The notes under the pieces: model-generated
What the model was told of the DNA's origin: nothing
The model's input: the letters and a program-made list of their open reading frames with translations, nothing else
The model's database searches: none
Position numbers and translations under genes: made by a program
In this document: positions 1 to 22,905 of the stretch, piece after piece
Position numbering within the stretch: the first letter of the stretch is position 1
Layout of the letters: each line of letters opens with the position of its first letter
Virus record (IMG/VR): IMGVR_UViG_3300034683_000400
Span: 1 to 25,127 of that record
Reading direction: 5' to 3' (one strand)
DNA: 25,127 bases
Source of the DNA: a virus

Positions 1-345
1 GTTGAACCAGGAAGATACTCTGCTCTACATCATAAAGAGAAAGCTCTTGATGCTCAAGTTGGAGCTGAGACGGCTAAAACTGCAGCTGAAACTGCCAGAA
101 CAGGAGCTGAGACGGCTAAAACTGCAGCTGAAACTGCCAGAACAGGAGCTGAAACTGCAGAAGCAAATGCTCTGGCGAGTGAGAATAAAGCAGAAAAGTG
201 GGCGCAAGAAGATGAAGATGTCGAGGTTGAGCCAGGTAAATATTCAGCGTTTCATTATAAGGAAAAGGCTCTCGCAGCTCAAATAAGAGCTGAGTTTGCA
301 GCAGCAAATGCTGAATTAGTAGCTTTAGGAGGGATGCCAATATGA
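1..345 (+). CDS. Tail fibre/appendage protein, C-terminal 114 residues (5' truncated)
   Basis: Open in frame 1 from the window edge to TGA at 343-345. The visible protein begins VEPGRYSALHHKEKAL and near residues 76-91 repeats almost the same module (VEPGKYSAFHYKEKAL). Between them lie Ala/Glu/Thr-rich heptads, AETAKTA and AETARTG, repeated twice, predicting a long helical coiled coil. Modules of the WAQEDEDVEVEPGKYSA kind are common in phage tail fibres and tail needles, where trimeric coiled coils space receptor-binding parts. The stop overlaps the next start by ATGA, so the genes are translationally coupled. A 42-bp DNA tandem repeat underlies the heptads. The role as a tail fibre is inferred from composition and from position just upstream of a DGR-type receptor-binding protein; the N-terminal half is outside the window. 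Confidence 0.75.
   Translation, partial: VEPGRYSALHHKEKALDAQVGAETAKTAAETARTGAETAKTAAETARTGAETAEANALASENKAEKWAQEDEDVEVEPGKYSAFHYKEKALAAQIRAEFAAANAELVALGGMPI
61..144 (+). repeat. 42-bp perfect tandem repeat (two copies) in the tail gene
   Basis: Bases 61-102 and 103-144 are identical, and the repeat continues for about 8 bases before diverging. The period is 42 bp, or 14 residues, exactly two coiled-coil heptads. Gain or loss of a copy would change rod length without breaking the frame or the heptad register. Confidence 0.9.
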
Positions 346-611
346 GCGCTATAAATTGCGGAGTTAAAACAGCCACATACACTCCATCAACAGTGGGAGT
401 AGCTGTAGGTAGGAAGTATTTACGACTCACAAACGAGTCACTTGACATGCGATGCCGAGCAGGGGTTTCGAACATATCGAGCACTGCAGGCATCATAATC
501 GAACCTGGTCAAACGGTTGAATTTCGACCGCTACCTTCTGAAAATCGAGAAATTTATGTTATGTCAGAAGGTAAAGCTGTAAAGTTAGCATATTACGAGG
601 TGATTGTGTAA
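342..611 (+). CDS. Small phage structural protein, unknown (89 aa)
   Basis: Starts at the ATG of an ATGA overlap with the upstream tail gene and ends by overlapping the next ATG (TAATG). It has no signal peptide or membrane segment. The sequence alternates short beta-prone stretches with turns (RKYLRLTNES, GIIIEPGQTVEFRPL, EIYVMSEGKAVKLAYYEV), suggesting a small beta-sandwich. Phages often encode such ~90-residue beta proteins among tail or capsid accessory genes. Position between a tail fibre and a lectin-fold protein suggests a virion or assembly role, but I recognise no named family. Confidence 0.65.
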   Translation: MSAINCGVKTATYTPSTVGVAVGRKYLRLTNESLDMRCRAGVSNISSTAGIIIEPGQTVEFRPLPSENREIYVMSEGKAVKLAYYEVIV

Positions 612-841
612 TGATATATACAACTAATGTAATTCAAGAAGAAGATAGAGAGAATGGTATTGAACGGATCACAGAAATAAACGTTGATTTTTCAGACGAA
701 GGGGTCAATCTTCAAGGATCCGTTAAGGTTGTAGGCGAGTGGCAACAATACTTAAAGACCCTTGAACAGGACATGCGAAACAACCATAGGTCGTTGTTTC
801 CGCTTCCTGAACCCGAAGAAATTGACGAGGAGATGGTATAA
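611..841 (+). CDS. Hypothetical acidic protein (76 aa)
   Basis: Start ATG overlaps the previous stop (TAATG), and the stop is immediately followed by the next ATG at 842, so it lies in a tightly coupled cluster. The product is acidic and hydrophilic, with a helical middle (EWQQYLKTLEQDMRNN) and a Pro/Glu-rich tail (FPLPEPEEIDEEM). No membrane segment, cysteine motif or catalytic motif is visible. It could be a chaperone or accessory factor for the neighbouring tail proteins; that is inferred from context only. Confidence 0.6.
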   Translation: MIYTTNVIQEEDRENGIERITEINVDFSDEGVNLQGSVKVVGEWQQYLKTLEQDMRNNHRSLFPLPEPEEIDEEMV

Positions 842-2074
842 ATGATTGTACCTGACGTAAAGTGTGTTTTAGGTGAGACGTTAGCAATGCAAGATGCTTG
901 GAGGCGAGGCTTTGAAGGTGCTTTGTCTCAGCGTGTCTTGGGCGTTGGCACTGAGGGAATTGCAAGTGCTGACGAGCGTGCTGAGTGGACAGCGAAGATG
1001 GAGATATTGAGCGGCGGTAAGAACACAATCAAGTGGGTAGACGATGGAGGAGAGACCAAAAAATATTGGCCGTCCATCGTAGTTGTGCGACCTACTCAAA
1101 TACGTGAATTTTACCTGCCAGGAGCAGGAAATGATATACATCCTGCTTTTGTTGCTGGTAGTAAAACGTATTCACAATATTATATGGGGAAATATCCTGG
1201 GCCGTATGTAGTAAGCAATGGCAAGACTATAATGTTGAGCTTGTACGGTTTCGACGGGATGTCTAATATGCTGACTGGAGCTTACGTACAACCAAATTAT
1301 GATAATGCTGTTCTTTATGGAAAAAACGGTGGCAACGGTTGTCACGCTGTTACCAACGCAGAATGGATGGAGATTGCCATGTCTTGTTTTCAAGACGGTT
1401 TTCAGCCGAAAGGGAATAATAATTATGGTAGAGACTATCAAGATGCTAATAGCCCAGAATATTATGGTGTGCCAGCATATTGGTATTCAAATAGAATAGC
1501 ACGTGTGTTGAACGGATCAGGCCCCATTTCATGGATGCATGACGGATCGCCGTGGGGAGTTTGGGGAATGAATGGAAATTTTTATCAATGGACGACTGGT
1601 TTTCGTCAAAATGCTGGTGAAATACAGGTAATACCTAACAATGATGCCGCTTTACCCGAAACTGATCACAGCGATGGGTCTGAAGCTTGGAAAGCTATGC
1701 TTGGTGATGGTTCGCTTGTTGCTCCTGGTACTGAAGCTACCTTAAAATATGACGCAACGAGCCCAATTAGCATAGTCACTGAAATAACTTCAAGAACTAC
1801 AACGACATATGTGTATAATTATTTTGGTGACGTTACTGGTATTGCTCCTAGTTTGGCTAAGTTGTTGGGCATTGCACCTGCAGGTTCGGCGGCTGATCAT
1901 GGTTTGGACAGAATATATATTAGAAACGATGCGTCTGGATCATATTCAGAAACGTTAGCGCTTCGTGGCGGCGACTGGAACGATGGTAGCTTCAGAGGTG
2001 TTTTCTCCTTGCATCTGCACGGCATTCGGTCGTACTCGACTCGCAGCATCGGCGCTCGCCCCGCTTTTCTTTAG
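842..2074 (+). CDS. DGR-type variable protein, C-type lectin/FGE-sulfatase fold (putative receptor-binding tail protein, 410 aa)
   Basis: The protein carries the layout seen in DGR target proteins of phages: a region like formylglycine-generating enzyme/C-type lectin folds (VWGMNGNFYQWTTGFRQNAGEIQ near residues 240-260, then IPNNDAALPETD) and a C-terminus LRGGDWNDGSFRGVFSLHL...RSYSTRSIGARPAFL at residues 374-410. This end matches the typical DGR variable-region pattern (RGGxWNxGxxAGVFxLxLxxxRSxSxxxIGxRPAF), in which the x positions come from AAC/AAT codons in a template repeat. Such proteins are sometimes annotated as SUMF1/EgtB/PvdO enzymes, but here a ligand-binding role is expected. The start abuts the previous stop. 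In BPP-1 the equivalent protein is Mtd, which selects the host receptor. No reverse transcriptase or template repeat is visible in this window. Confidence 0.85.
   Translation: MIVPDVKCVLGETLAMQDAWRRGFEGALSQRVLGVGTEGIASADERAEWTAKMEILSGGKNTIKWVDDGGETKKYWPSIVVVRPTQIREFYLPGAGNDIHPAFVAGSKTYSQYYMGKYPGPYVVSNGKTIMLSLYGFDGMSNMLTGAYVQPNYDNAVLYGKNGGNGCHAVTNAEWMEIAMSCFQDGFQPKGNNNYGRDYQDANSPEYYGVPAYWYSNRIARVLNGSGPISWMHDGSPWGVWGMNGNFYQWTTGFRQNAGEIQVIPNNDAALPETDHSDGSEAWKAMLGDGSLVAPGTEATLKYDATSPISIVTEITSRTTTTYVYNYFGDVTGIAPSLAKLLGIAPAGSAADHGLDRIYIRNDASGSYSETLALRGGDWNDGSFRGVFSLHLHGIRSYSTRSIGARPAFL
1961..2071 (+). other. Candidate DGR variable region (VR)
   Basis: The last ~111 coding bases specify the lectin-fold ligand-binding end. 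Base composition changes sharply here: the gene body is AT-rich with A/T third positions, while the VR is rich in G/C third positions (GGCGGCGACTGG; TCGGCGCTCGCCCCGC). Codons at the expected surface positions (GAC, GAT, TTC, TCC, CAT, CAC, TAC, ACT) look like products of adenine mutagenesis of AAC/AAT. The invariant GC-rich 3' end resembles an initiation-of-mutagenic-homing region. Confidence 0.7.
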
Positions 2075-2145
2075 AACTTGAGAATCTGTTATCTGTTTTT
2101 GTGATAATCTGGTTTTGGTTTTGTTTTGGAAAGGAGGTAATAATC

Positions 2146-2727
2146 ATGCGATTTGATGACGCATTCAAAATAGTTTTAGGTTTCGAAGGAGGCTACAGCA
2201 ACGACCCATCAGACAAAGGCAGTGAGACCAATTACGGCATCACAGCAAGCACATTAGAATCCGCCAAAACTAAAGGTTGGGTGCCGTCCAACGTGACTAT
2301 CAGAAACTTAAAACTTGATCATGCTAAGACCATCTATAAAAAGGGTTATTGGGATGTGGTCAAAGCTGATAGCTTGCCACATCCTCTCGATCTCATCATA
2401 TTCGATATGGCGGTCAACCATGGCCCGAGCGCAGCGGTTAAATTATTGCAGGAATCGCTCAACTCCATACTTAAAGCAGGCCCCAGCCTAGTTGTAGATG
2501 GCATCATGGGGCCGAAGACGCTCACAGCGGTTAAAGACGTGGTCAGCATGGATCACAATATGTGGCTCCAACCCAACGCGCTTGTCCGCTATTTATGCAT
2601 CGACGTGCTTATGAACAGGGTTGAACTCTACACATCTATCATTGCAAGTGATAGGACACAAGAGAAATTCTTTAAGGGATGGATCGTCAATCGAGTGGTG
2701 AAACTCAAGCAGCAGGCTGGTCTTTAA
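2146..2727 (+). CDS. Endolysin, glycoside hydrolase family 108 type (193 aa)
   Basis: Peptidoglycan-cleaving lysozyme. The N-terminus MRFDDAFKIVLGFEGGYSND followed by DKGSETNYGIT is the signature of the GH108 family; Glu14 in the EGGY motif is the expected catalytic acid. FDMAVNHGPSAAVKLLQ and VDGIMGPKTL, near residues 85-130, are the downstream family elements resembling a predicted peptidoglycan-binding half. The ATG at 2146 is chosen over an upstream GTG (2101) because AAAGGAGG lies 6-7 bases before it and the upstream extension is unlike the family. There is no obvious signal peptide, so export would depend on the holin. It heads the lysis cassette. Confidence 0.9.
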   Translation: MRFDDAFKIVLGFEGGYSNDPSDKGSETNYGITASTLESAKTKGWVPSNVTIRNLKLDHAKTIYKKGYWDVVKADSLPHPLDLIIFDMAVNHGPSAAVKLLQESLNSILKAGPSLVVDGIMGPKTLTAVKDVVSMDHNMWLQPNALVRYLCIDVLMNRVELYTSIIASDRTQEKFFKGWIVNRVVKLKQQAGL

Positions 2728-5363: not shown

Positions 5364-7006
5364 GCCAACCCCTCCATCAATGGAAATCCTTGCACACCAT
5401 ATGACGGTGTGCACAATACAAGTTCCTCTCTGGCCCTTGTGCCAGCTACGTAATACAACCTCCTCAGTGAATCTCTACCTTCACCACCGCTATACCATGA
5501 CCTGACCTGTGGCTTTGCAAAGTCAGGTAGCACATATACTATGTCTGCCTCACCACCCTTAACACTGTGAATAGTACCAACGATAACCTGTGGTTGAGAT
5601 AAGAGCTGCGAGGCCTTTTTCTTTAATACTCGTAGAGGGTATTGCATCTTTTTCTTTCCTTCGTTTGTGAGGTTTGCCTCAAACCACTCAAGTTTCTTTT
5701 CCTCACTGCCAAATACCATTGTCAAAGCATCTTCATCAGAAAACACATCGGCTATGGTAAGTTTCTCTGTAGGTTTGGCTTTTTTAAGTTTTTCTTTTAT
5801 GCCGTGCTTTAATACTTTGGAGTCTATCAGTGGGATCCATTTCTGCAGGTCATCGGCAGACCACGTAGATGAAGCATCATCGCCCCACAACGACTTAGAG
5901 AACTTGAGGAATGACGTAAGTCTTTCAGCAGATGATGTACCTCTACCACGATTCAAGGGATTCCATGCACCTTGCTTCAATCTGTAGGGGTTGTGGTATG
6001 CGATGCCCTCCTGCCTCATGAGTTGAATGAAAGGAATGAGCATATAGGCACATGAAGCTAAGACCATAATTTTTTTGCCTCGTTTCATGTCTTTTTCTAT
6101 CTCAAGCAAAAGCATCGATGGGTCTTTGGCGTTGGCTTGAGACAACCTAACCTTGCCCTCAACTACCTTGCCATCCTCCTCCCGTGGTTTGTATTCTTTA
6201 ATTTGTCGTCTTTCTACTTTGGATATAATGTTCTCAGACCAAGACAAGACAGATTGTGGCACTCTATATGATTTACCCAACACTATGATGTGGTCATCGG
6301 GTAGCGGTGGATCGAGCATTGAATCTGGAGAAGCTCCACTAAACTGGTACAGACATTGATCTTCGTCACCAACAAGTACCAGTGTTTCCATCTTACTGCC
6401 CCATTTACGCACCAAGGCAAACTGCAATGGTGTCATGTCCTGAGCCTCATCGACAAAGCCAACCGCCGGATTGTTTGGAGCGAAAGATATATCTTTCAAC
6501 GCTATTTCGAGGAGATCGGTAAAATCGAGGAGGTTATCTCCTCTCTTCCAGTCCTCCCACGCGTTATAAAGGATCCTTACATTTGTGGGCCACATTTCAG
6601 GGGGTACGAGCATCGACCTCAACCTCTGCATTTCTTGGTATGCCTCAGCACCTGGAGCTGTGGCAGGCTGTACATCGAAGGGGTCATCTACATCTACATC
6701 GGCACTCACCGCAAGGTCAGGATGTTTTGCGTTGAACTCTGATATGTGGTTTTCGGCAAGCTCAGGAAAGTCGAGTGCCCTATAGCAGTGTGCATGCAGT
6801 GTACCGACTGATGCTTTTGGCAATATTATGCCTACACGGGAGGCTATTTCTATGGCTGCGGCCCTCGTAAAGGACGTAACGAAAATATTTTCGCCGCCAT
6901 GGATCTTTCGAGCACGTTCAATCTGACGCGCCAAGTATGTGGTTTTACCTGTGCCTGGAGGACCAAAAACCCTGAACTCATTCGTTTCTGTCATTGTCAT
7001 CGTCAT
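5360..7006 (-). CDS. UvrD/PcrA-like superfamily 1 DNA helicase (548 aa)
   Basis: ATP-dependent helicase. Walker A FGPPGTGKTTYLARQI lies at ~14-28, motif Ia FVTSFTRAAAIEI at ~42, Walker B FVDEAQD at ~184-190, motif III LVGDEDQCLYQFSGA at ~211-225, motif V GTIHSVKGGEADIVYV, and motif VI RRLYYVAGTRAREELVL near the C-terminus. At 548 residues it is shorter than cellular UvrD (~720), as usual for phage versions. The N-terminus reads MTMTMTE: three in-frame ATGs. The first has only two bases between AGGAGG and ATG, so the second (7000) has better spacing and may be the real start. It overlaps the primase gene by ~29 bp. Expected to unwind DNA with the AEP primase. Confidence 0.92.
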   Translation of the reverse strand: MTMTMTETNEFRVFGPPGTGKTTYLARQIERARKIHGGENIFVTSFTRAAAIEIASRVGIILPKASVGTLHAHCYRALDFPELAENHISEFNAKHPDLAVSADVDVDDPFDVQPATAPGAEAYQEMQRLRSMLVPPEMWPTNVRILYNAWEDWKRGDNLLDFTDLLEIALKDISFAPNNPAVGFVDEAQDMTPLQFALVRKWGSKMETLVLVGDEDQCLYQFSGASPDSMLDPPLPDDHIIVLGKSYRVPQSVLSWSENIISKVERRQIKEYKPREEDGKVVEGKVRLSQANAKDPSMLLLEIEKDMKRGKKIMVLASCAYMLIPFIQLMRQEGIAYHNPYRLKQGAWNPLNRGRGTSSAERLTSFLKFSKSLWGDDASSTWSADDLQKWIPLIDSKVLKHGIKEKLKKAKPTEKLTIADVFSDEDALTMVFGSEEKKLEWFEANLTNEGKKKMQYPLRVLKKKASQLLSQPQVIVGTIHSVKGGEADIVYVLPDFAKPQVRSWYSGGEGRDSLRRLYYVAGTRAREELVLCTPSYGVQGFPLMEGLA

Positions 7007-16011: not shown

Positions 16012-16033
16012 GTGTATACATTCATGTATACAC
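16012..16033. promoter_or_regulatory. 22-bp palindromic operator, copy 1
   Basis: GTGTATACAT-TC-ATGTATACAC, a perfect 10-bp inverted repeat. It sits between the leftward promoter and the rightward promoter of the Xre gene, ending 2 bp before the latter's -35 box. Likely target of the Xre-family regulator encoded at 16097. Confidence 0.85.
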
Positions 16034-16035
16034 GG

Positions 16036-16096: not shown

Positions 16097-16381
16097 ATGG
16101 AGGATATCGGGTGGAGACTGAAACGAGCGCGTGAGATGGTGGGCCTGTCACGGGCCGAGGCGACCACATTGTTAGGGATACACCCCCAGTATATGGCCGA
16201 CATCGAAGGTGGAAGACGCACACCGTCGATGTCGATGTTACGGAAGGTGTCATTGGCGTATGGGATGCCGATGTGGTGGTTCTTGTTACCCAAGGATGTG
16301 GAGGGAGGTATGACAATAACAGTAAAGATACCACAGCACCTTAAATGGTTGACTGAGAGCCCGCTGAAAGAAGAAGAGTAG
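16097..16381 (+). CDS. Xre/Cro-family HTH transcription regulator (94 aa)
   Basis: Residues ~5-62 form an HTH_3 domain: GWRLKRAREMVGLSRAEATT, LLGIHPQYMADIEGGRRTPS, then MLRKVSLAYGMPMWWFL. The C-terminal 30 residues (MTITVKIPQHLKWLTESPL) are a short tail, with no peptidase (LexA/CI S24) domain, so RecA-driven cleavage is unlikely. AAGGAGGGG precedes the ATG. It is the only + strand regulator in the early region and is divergent from the main leftward operon with a palindrome between them. The best reading is a Cro/CI-like switch protein controlling the two operator-linked promoters; binding itself is inferred. Confidence 0.88.
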   Translation: MEDIGWRLKRAREMVGLSRAEATTLLGIHPQYMADIEGGRRTPSMSMLRKVSLAYGMPMWWFLLPKDVEGGMTITVKIPQHLKWLTESPLKEEE

Positions 16382-19522: not shown

Positions 19523-19532
19523 GTGTTTTTTC

Positions 19533-19554
19533 GTGTATACATGCATGTATACAC
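19533..19554. promoter_or_regulatory. 22-bp palindromic operator, copy 2
   Basis: GTGTATACAT-GC-ATGTATACAC; both 10-bp arms are identical to copy 1 at 16012-16033, and the placement relative to the leftward promoter is the same within 1 bp. Confidence 0.85.
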
Positions 19555-20465: not shown

Positions 20466-22905
20466 CGAGCGCCTGATCAATAAATTTGCTGCTTACCGTA
20501 AAGACCCAGTCCTCTTCGTGCGAGAGATTTTTGGTGCCACGCCCACACCACAGCAGGAGAAGCTCTTAAAGGCCATAGCAAAGGACAACGCACATGTTGC
20601 TGTGAAGAGCGGTCATGGGGTCGGAAAAGCGGGAACAATGGACACAATTACCATGACACCAGATGGACCACGATTCTGGGGTGATCTTAAAGTTGGTGAC
20701 GATGTATTTGGCCTTGATGGCTCACCAACTAGAATAAAAGCTATTTATCCACAGGGCAAGTTAAAAATATACAAAGTAATTTTTACCGATGGTAGCTCGT
20801 TAGAAGCATCTGGCGACCACTTGTGGAAGGTCAAGACTCGTAAAGAAAGACGATATTCACGTGGTTGGCGTATTGCAACTACTGAAGAGTTGATCCCACT
20901 GTGCCGTAGAAGTAATGGTATCAGCACAGCAAGGCAAATAGAAATACCACCATATGAGCCTGTGGCATTCCGTAAGAAGAAAGAGCTGCCACTCCACCCG
21001 TATTTCGTAGGTTGCTGGATCGGTGATGGATGTCGCGGCAGCGGTATAATCAAAAAACCAGAGATTGAAATATATGAACGCTTCAAAGAATTAGGCATCG
21101 ATGTTTCGTTCGTTGATAATACTAAAATTACAAGTCGTGGATGCTCTAAATATTTGCGTGAAATTGGATTACTTAATTGCTATGCATATGAAAAGTTTAT
21201 TCCTAACATATATAAATACTCTTCTATAGAAGATCGTTTTGAGCTTCTACGTGGTTTGATTGACACTGATGGGTATATCGATAAAAGAGGTGTGTGTGTA
21301 TACACAACCACAAGCCCCAGGCTTAGAGATGATATTGTGTGGCTGGTTAGATCACTTGGTGGTATTGCTATCGCACAAAAAGCAACAAAGAAAGCATATT
21401 ATACCGATGAAGACGGTTACAAAGTCCAGTGCAACGATGCCTACAACGTAACTATTCGTTTTAAGCCTGGTGTATGTTTAGGTTATGTCAGTAGAAAACA
21501 AAAGAACCTGCACAACAATGTCCAGGATAGATATCTCAAGCGTTGGATTGACCGTATAGAAGAAGTTGGCATGAAAGAAAGTATGTGTATCGAGGTTGAG
21601 GCACCAGACCATATGTACCTCGCTGGTGAGGACTTCGTACCAACACATAACACATCTACTCTTGCATGGTCTCTGCTGTGGTATCTTTGGACAAGGTTAG
21701 ATGTAGAGATACCATGTACAGCACCATCAGCTCACCAGCTCAACGACGTGTTGTGGTCAGAAATAGACTCATGGCGTATGAAGATGCCCAAGGACATGGC
21801 CGACGCAACTATTGTCACTAAGGATCGTGTTACCATAGAAGGATGTGGTAAGAAGCAATACGCCGTAGCTCGTACAGCACGCCGTGATCAGCCAAGTGCG
21901 TTGCAGGGGTTCCACGCTAAGAACCTCATGTTTCTGATAGATGAGGCCGCTGAGGTACCTAACGAGATATTCGAGGTAATGAGAGGCACACTCACTACCA
22001 GTAATGCCAGAGTTGTTATGACAGGTAACCCTACAATGGTCACTGGATACTTCTACGAAGCATTCAACAACAACAGAAGATTGTGGGATACATATACTTT
22101 TTCATGTCTTGATTCGCCGCTCGTAACTAAAGAATATATAGAGCTAATGAAGCAGGAATATGGCGAGGATAGTGACCAATACCGTGTCAGAGTGCTTGGT
22201 GAGTTCCCTAGCGCCTCGGTACAGCAGTTTATACCACTTGAGTTGGTCGAAGCAGCAATACATAGGTTCTTGCATGATAGTGAGTATAACTTTGCTCCTG
22301 TGATACTTGGGGCTGACGTGAGTTACTTTGGTGACGATAGTAGTTGTTTATTTTTGCGACAAGGTTTATACTCAGAGAAACTATGGGAAGGCACTGATAT
22401 AGATACTCTTGAATACGCTGACAAGATATATAGATTCGCCGTAGAGAGAAATGCTGATAAGATCTTCGTTGATGTAACTGGTGTAGGTGCAGGTGTAGTC
22501 GACCAGTTGAGGCGCATGGGTATGAGTGATAAGGTCGTTGGTGTTAATAGTTCTGCAGCATCCAGTCGCCCAGAGCTTGCAAACAAGCGCATGGAGATGT
22601 GGTATGAGATGAAGGAATGGTTGAAGAGCGGTGGGGCTATACCTGACGATAGAAAACTGCGCGATGATTTAGTTACACCATACTACGACTACCATAGACA
22701 ATCTGGTAAGATGAAGCTTGAGTCGAAGCAGGCCATAAAGAAAGTGCGTAAGTTGCCTAGCCCTGATAGAGCAGATGCATTGGCTCTGACTTTTGCTTAT
22801 CCTGTAGTAAAAAGGTTAGGTGTTAATGGTGATAGATTTTTTGTATCAGGCGGCAGGTCTCGGTCCATTGGTGGAGGGCCGCATGCCGTGTTGGTAAATA
22901 ATTAA
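20461..22905 (+). CDS. terL: Terminase large subunit with in-frame intein (814 aa precursor, ~473 aa after splicing)
   Basis: ATPase-nuclease that drives and cuts packaged DNA. The first ATG/GTG (20518) would drop INERLINKFAAYRKDPVLFV, which belongs to the conserved start of this family; the open frame begins after TGA 20446-20448, so an ATT (20461, overlapping the terS stop as ATTAA) or CTG (20473) start is likely. Walker A GHGVGK|TS is split by the intein. Walker B is LMFLIDEAAE and a coupling TGNP follows. Nuclease acids lie in ILGADVSYFGDD, IFVDVTGVGAG and SPDRADALALTFA. All motifs are intact once the intein is removed, so the gene appears functional only after protein splicing. Confidence 0.92.
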   Translation: MNERLINKFAAYRKDPVLFVREIFGATPTPQQEKLLKAIAKDNAHVAVKSGHGVGKAGTMDTITMTPDGPRFWGDLKVGDDVFGLDGSPTRIKAIYPQGKLKIYKVIFTDGSSLEASGDHLWKVKTRKERRYSRGWRIATTEELIPLCRRSNGISTARQIEIPPYEPVAFRKKKELPLHPYFVGCWIGDGCRGSGIIKKPEIEIYERFKELGIDVSFVDNTKITSRGCSKYLREIGLLNCYAYEKFIPNIYKYSSIEDRFELLRGLIDTDGYIDKRGVCVYTTTSPRLRDDIVWLVRSLGGIAIAQKATKKAYYTDEDGYKVQCNDAYNVTIRFKPGVCLGYVSRKQKNLHNNVQDRYLKRWIDRIEEVGMKESMCIEVEAPDHMYLAGEDFVPTHNTSTLAWSLLWYLWTRLDVEIPCTAPSAHQLNDVLWSEIDSWRMKMPKDMADATIVTKDRVTIEGCGKKQYAVARTARRDQPSALQGFHAKNLMFLIDEAAEVPNEIFEVMRGTLTTSNARVVMTGNPTMVTGYFYEAFNNNRRLWDTYTFSCLDSPLVTKEYIELMKQEYGEDSDQYRVRVLGEFPSASVQQFIPLELVEAAIHRFLHDSEYNFAPVILGADVSYFGDDSSCLFLRQGLYSEKLWEGTDIDTLEYADKIYRFAVERNADKIFVDVTGVGAGVVDQLRRMGMSDKVVGVNSSAASSRPELANKRMEMWYEMKEWLKSGGAIPDDRKLRDDLVTPYYDYHRQSGKMKLESKQAIKKVRKLPSPDRADALALTFAYPVVKRLGVNGDRFFVSGGRSRSIGGGPHAVLVNN
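20629..21651 (+). mobile_element. Intein with LAGLIDADG endonuclease in TerL, class 3-type (341 aa)
   Basis: In-frame insertion beginning AGTMDTITMTPDGPRFWGDL (Ala1) and ending DFVPTHN before extein Thr. N-terminal Hint block: KVGDDVFGLDGSPTRI; block B: LEASGDHLWKV. Homing endonuclease motifs: HPYFVGCWIGDG and LLRGLIDTDGYID, the two LAGLIDADG helices. C-terminal blocks F/G: SMCIEVEAPDHMYLAGEDFV, PTHN. It lacks a Cys/Ser at position 1 but has Trp66, Cys320 and Thr339, the W-C-T set of class 3 inteins, which start splicing from the block F Cys. It occupies the most conserved motif of the host protein, as inteins usually do. Confidence 0.93.

Follow-up and report, generated by a model that had tools for sequence, protein, structure and literature searches.

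The window, by which we mean the whole 25,127-bp stretch of DNA analysed here, is an entire IMG/VR entry derived from an incomplete phage. The genomes of its relatives are about 40–42 kb, and relative to G004, of 42 kb, it is without about 15 kb, a segment that begins behind the portal and extends to the tail fibre. The features around the variable protein (VP) gene, with its variable repeat (VR), are described relative to L001 (IMGVR_UViG_3300020111_000048), a viral relative found by a scan of viral contigs, in which a template repeat (TR) and a reverse transcriptase (RT) are also encoded:

1–341, plus strand: C-terminal end of a tail fibre, its 5' end cut by the end of the record; DNA not common to L001; left border of the exchanged cassette.
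342–841, plus strand: two small genes, encoding 89 aa (342–611) and 76 aa (611–841), that accompany VP in L001, L202 and G001.
842–2074, plus strand: VP gene, 410 aa, TaqVP family, with a formylglycine-generating-enzyme (FGE)-type C-type-lectin fold, a predicted phage adhesin (phmmer, fold search, PHROG_2889).
1955–2065, plus strand: VR, matching the L001 TR (2299–2409) without gaps.
2054–2065, plus strand: GC-rich 3' core of the VR, 12 bp, GCTCGCCCCGCT, an IMH-like end identical in the VR and TR of L001 and single copy in the window.
2075–2116, plus strand: non-coding segment behind the VP stop, common to L001 and partly to L202, with repeated ATCTG; it ends where the missing block starts.
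2117–2129, plus strand: junction, GGTTTTGTTTTGG, 13 bp replacing the avd-TR-RT block in the alignment with L001.
2146–2727, plus strand: endolysin (GH108 and PG_binding_3), the first ~80–110 bp close to L001 and the rest close to L071/G003 (86% aa identity).

An open reading frame had been placed at 842–2074 from the sequence alone, and its coordinates are exact. A phmmer search matched residues 73–410 of the encoded protein to TaqVP (5VF4, E=2.1e-45, about 32% identity), the crystallised variable protein of a Thermus aquaticus prophage DGR (PMC6328139); among solved structures it is the only one related by sequence. A profile built from 94 members of the VP family matched the same structure with E=4.5e-125. 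The protein is matched by PHROG_2889 (E=2e-68), and no Pfam domains were detected in it. An AlphaFold model, for which the VP and 93 fetched relatives served as input, reached a pLDDT of 95 and a pTM of 0.94. Superposition of this model on 5VF4, its best fold match, gave a TM-score of 0.76–0.84; the next matches were BPP-1 Mtd and then Treponema TvpA, all of them DGR variable proteins. The VP thus combines homology to the TaqVP-type DGR variable proteins with their FGE-subtype C-type-lectin fold. It is a DGR target protein of the TaqVP family, as the sequence-only reading had proposed from its lectin-like C-terminus; sequence, fold and the presence of a whole cassette in L001 all bear this out. 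Its role is presumably that of a receptor-binding adhesin at the tail tip.

Both small genes (89 aa and 76 aa) recur in the L001 record, as does VP, with 87% identity to that of the window. The gene order of L001 is VP-avd-TR-RT, followed by the endolysin, with the DGR components located as follows:

1933–2268 of L001: avd (NF033474, 5e-33).
2299–2409 of L001: TR.
2580–3629 of L001: RT (RVT_1, 3e-26).

Among solved structures the L001 RT matches 8ub7 best, in which an RT is in complex with Avd (E=2e-59), and the L001 Avd matches the same entry with E=0.0016. Between the TR and VR of L001, 14 of 25 adenines are changed and only one of 86 other bases. Judged by these matches and this pattern, the DGR of L001 is genuine. 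The two phages are thus alike in the cassette of the 89-aa gene, the 76-aa gene and VP, in the frame of the VR and in its 3' core, whereas L001 differs in carrying a complete avd-TR-RT block and another backbone downstream of the endolysin start. Runs of exact identity of 122 and 137 nt are shared by the two VP genes, compared with a maximum of 80 in 2,000 codon shuffles. These runs lie at window positions 1346–1703, in a gene that is otherwise about 80–85% identical. Long exact runs of this kind are a sign of recent recombination between the two lineages.

Comparison of the window VR with the L001 TR revealed changes at 14 of 25 TR adenines and at 19 of 86 other bases (Fisher p=0.002). Nine of the ten AAY codons of the L001 TR are altered in the window VR (to D, D, F, H, G, Y, T, R and S). 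When the two proteins are compared, 8/10 AAY codons differ, a figure that includes changes in L001's own VR, against 4/22 VR codons without an A (p=0.0015) and 38/373 codons elsewhere in the gene (p=9e-7); since the L001 VR is itself diversified, these counts mark the variable region rather than the recency of rewriting of the window copy. Given the 22% difference at bases other than adenine, the TR from which the window VR was written would have diverged from that of L001. The VR end is IMH-like and present in the window, its 12-bp core being common to the VR and TR of L001, with a function that is predicted. The VP of the window therefore has a VR at its C-terminus in which AAY-derived codons vary within a conserved frame.

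A break in composition at the end of the gene had also been claimed, and it is real. The GC content of the last 111 nt is 58.6%, compared with a mean of 44.5% for 111-nt windows along the gene, of which 1.2% are as high, and GC3 rises from 34% to 62% in the last 37 codons. The same jump is found in L001 and L202, which makes it a property of this type of VR. As an argument for rewriting from a template it points in the right direction but is weak when taken alone.

The statement that no Avd, template repeat or RT is visible in 25 kb holds for the record: searches for an RT (RVT_1), for Avd and for a second VR copy or template repeat were each negative over the 25,127 bp. The next gene is indeed an endolysin. 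Alignment with L001 showed exactly what is absent. Behind the VP stop some 40 bp are still common to both, up to window position 2116 (L001 1922), and similarity sets in again at the endolysin RBS, where window 2130 corresponds to L001 3600. The absent block, L001 1923–3599, is 1,677 bp long, contains avd, TR and RT, and has clean borders. The 70 bp that separate VP from the endolysin in the window show no avd scar, so that a loss after arrival and an arrival without the machinery leave the same picture.

The GRNA-loop hairpin behind the VR is absent from the window (2066–2129), and likewise from L001 (1872–1935). It is found in 58 of 104 TR-bearing loci of the family, compared with 4 of 830 random windows, and absent in 46. 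L001 shows nearly adenine-only change despite having no hairpin; the hairpin was consequently dropped as a test of target competence. Scans of the viral contig collection, from which records resembling the window may have been absent, retrieved L001 only, both for the post-VR element and for the pattern conserved at the 3' end of VRs; of the two VR patterns scanned, the broader one alone covers the window's own VR.

Downstream of the junction, several independent contigs are colinear with the window, and G004 matches much of the window, mostly at about 86–91% DNA identity. The portal is 96–97% identical in five records (G003–G006 and G008), and no RT was found in any of these. At the adhesin site, the three relatives examined (G003, G004 and G005) encode other adhesin-like proteins, either long and tailspike-like or, in G005, lectin-like by eye. 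The cassette of the 89-aa gene, the 76-aa gene and VP stands behind four different tail-fibre ends, those of the window, L001, L202 and G001/G002, the G002 contig ending inside VP. The occurrence of the same cassette behind different tail fibres, together with other adhesins in the backbone relatives, indicates that the adhesin site is a place of module exchange.

The portal had been called BPP-1-type and taken as suggestive of a DGR. It does belong to the Pfam family Head-tail_con (PF12236, E=1e-121), but as this family is widespread in podoviruses, the portal alone is no pointer to a DGR and carries little weight. Elsewhere in the backbone, the large terminase (20518–22905) is split in its Walker A region by an intein-like insert at about 20629–21651 (GHGVGK / AGTMD ... 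HN / TS), which carries a LAGLIDADG/Hom_end homing endonuclease and whose first residue is apparently Ala. Two near-identical, operator-like palindromic repeats of 23 nt (GTGTATACATTCATGTATACACG) are located at 16012–16034 and 19532–19554, the former just upstream of a 94-aa ORF (16097–16381) that looks like a helix-turn-helix protein by eye.

A census of the family yielded 167 VP loci, including a few duplicates, of which 111 have an RT according to a home-made RT profile and 37 are too short for the presence of an RT to be judged. Nineteen loci, the window and G001 among them, have at least 4 kb downstream and no RT, which amounts to 15% of the informative loci. For most of the loci without an RT, the search was extended to the whole record or genome, and it was empty or returned distant RTs only. 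Where RT and VP occur together the distance is at most 2,557 bp (110 family loci), and the 103 TR-bearing loci show change at 54% of adenines compared with 1.3% of other bases. The VR of L278 matches the TR of L212, which lies about 22 kb away on the same contig (JABLWZ010000003.1), with 12 of 23 adenines and none of 89 other bases changed. By this pattern the L278 VR is likely served by the L212 TR, as a remote second target and a case of action in trans. The RT match of the genome that carries the two loci is broken by an in-frame TGA.

The record of G001 (19.3 kb) encodes a VP that is 55% identical to that of the window, and no RT was found in it. Within about 100 nt behind the VP stop, however, DNLKIRQKHEDFMLYAYKALR is encoded, a stretch of 21 aa (L090/G001 about 6254–6316) that is 57% identical to residues 2–22 of the L001 Avd (E=2.9e-4 in a search of 920 bp). 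We read this putative avd remnant as the scar of a lost cassette, which would make it an independent loss of a DGR. The N bases in the G001 VR were considered as a sign of population variation and dropped, because N also occurs elsewhere in that record.

The sequence-only reading had left three options: an RT elsewhere in the genome, a host supplying it in trans, or a stranded VR. The clean absence between VP stop and endolysin RBS, the close spacing of RT and VP in the family, the RT-less backbone relatives and the scar in G001 together favour the last, and we consider it probable that the VR was written by the DGR of an ancestor and then stranded without machinery by exchange of the adhesin module or by deletion. 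The other two options remain as one alternative, namely that the VR is still diversified by an RT, Avd and TR encoded in the unsequenced part of the phage, or provided by a prophage or co-infecting phage. This seems unlikely to us, although about 15 kb of the phage is unseen, the window retains both the 3' core and the flank behind the VR, and the pair formed by the L278 VR and the L212 TR suggests that one TR can serve a distant VP. Against it speak the near-complete backbone relatives without an RT (G004, G005 and G008), the family spacing of at most 2.6 kb and the restriction of repeats with the VR 3' pattern to L001 in the viral contig collection.

An assembly artefact, through omission of the avd-TR-RT block or fusion of two phages, is very improbable. 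The record is metagenomic and known from assembly alone, and patches of its VP gene are identical to L001. A collapse between TR and VR would nevertheless keep the RT downstream and place the join inside the repeat, whereas in the window the two sides meet in unique DNA, past the stop codon, and the RT is missing as well; collapse was rejected on this ground. Moreover, the DNA downstream is colinear with independent contigs, and G001 is independently without the block while keeping a scar. That the VP is an ordinary lectin-fold adhesin and never was a DGR target is scarcely credible, for although FGE-type lectin folds exist without DGRs, and the G005 adhesin at this site ends in a domain that looks lectin-like by eye, in a record without an RT, the window VP is 87% identical to one with an adjacent adenine-specific TR/VR pair, its VR matches that TR without gaps and with excess change at AAY codons, the TR of L001 already explains its frame, and adenine-biased change marks the 103 family members with TRs.

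Under the preferred reading of a stranded VR, the last 37 codons of VP would have been written by mutagenic retrohoming in an ancestor, and both this ancestral rewriting and the loss by module exchange or deletion are what we infer from the comparison with L001. The phage backbone would be of a kind that bears different, non-DGR adhesins at this site, and the cassette of the two small genes and VP would have been acquired from, or be common to, a phage of the L001 type, its avd-TR-RT half having gone. Either a crossover that fused the 3' flank of VP with the start of the endolysin or a deletion at this place may account for the loss. The VR would then be frozen, leaving the phage with one inherited specificity, and further change could come only from ordinary mutation, from recombination with relatives that bear a DGR, or in trans should the VR encounter a matching TR and RT. 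A wider speculation, which we hold to be doubtful, is that DGR-less phages draw on the diversity generated by relatives with a DGR, one DGR serving a pool of phages. If so, such phages could take up pre-diversified adhesin cassettes that lack the retroelement, fix them, and swap them again by recombination whenever another specificity is called for.

Large surveys of DGRs begin from the RT and state that they miss targets not adjoining one (PMC8144416), so that targets which have lost their RT go uncounted. Text searches of the open-licence literature found no paper on RT-less DGR targets. A close pair of cassettes with and without the machinery, together with a second apparent loss that left a scar, suggests that the adhesin half is separable from the retroelement half. 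Whether a DGR is kept only while host receptors change, and whether the diversity it makes reaches phages that bear none of its cost, are questions that can now be tested.

Among the known systems, TaqVP resembles the window VP in its fold over the whole length, in a VR at the extreme C-terminus and in a conserved frame around the variable positions, but it adjoins avd, TR and RT (PMC6328139). In the BPP-1 DGR (Mtd, Avd and bRT), Mtd is a distant fold match only (TM about 0.3), and BPP-1 needs the GRNA hairpin behind its VR, whereas the window and L001 have none and the window is in addition without the cassette. The likeness to BPP-1 lies in the target, a phage adhesin with a C-type-lectin VR, and, for L001, in the order VP-avd-TR-RT and in an RT and Avd that match the RT-Avd complex 8ub7.
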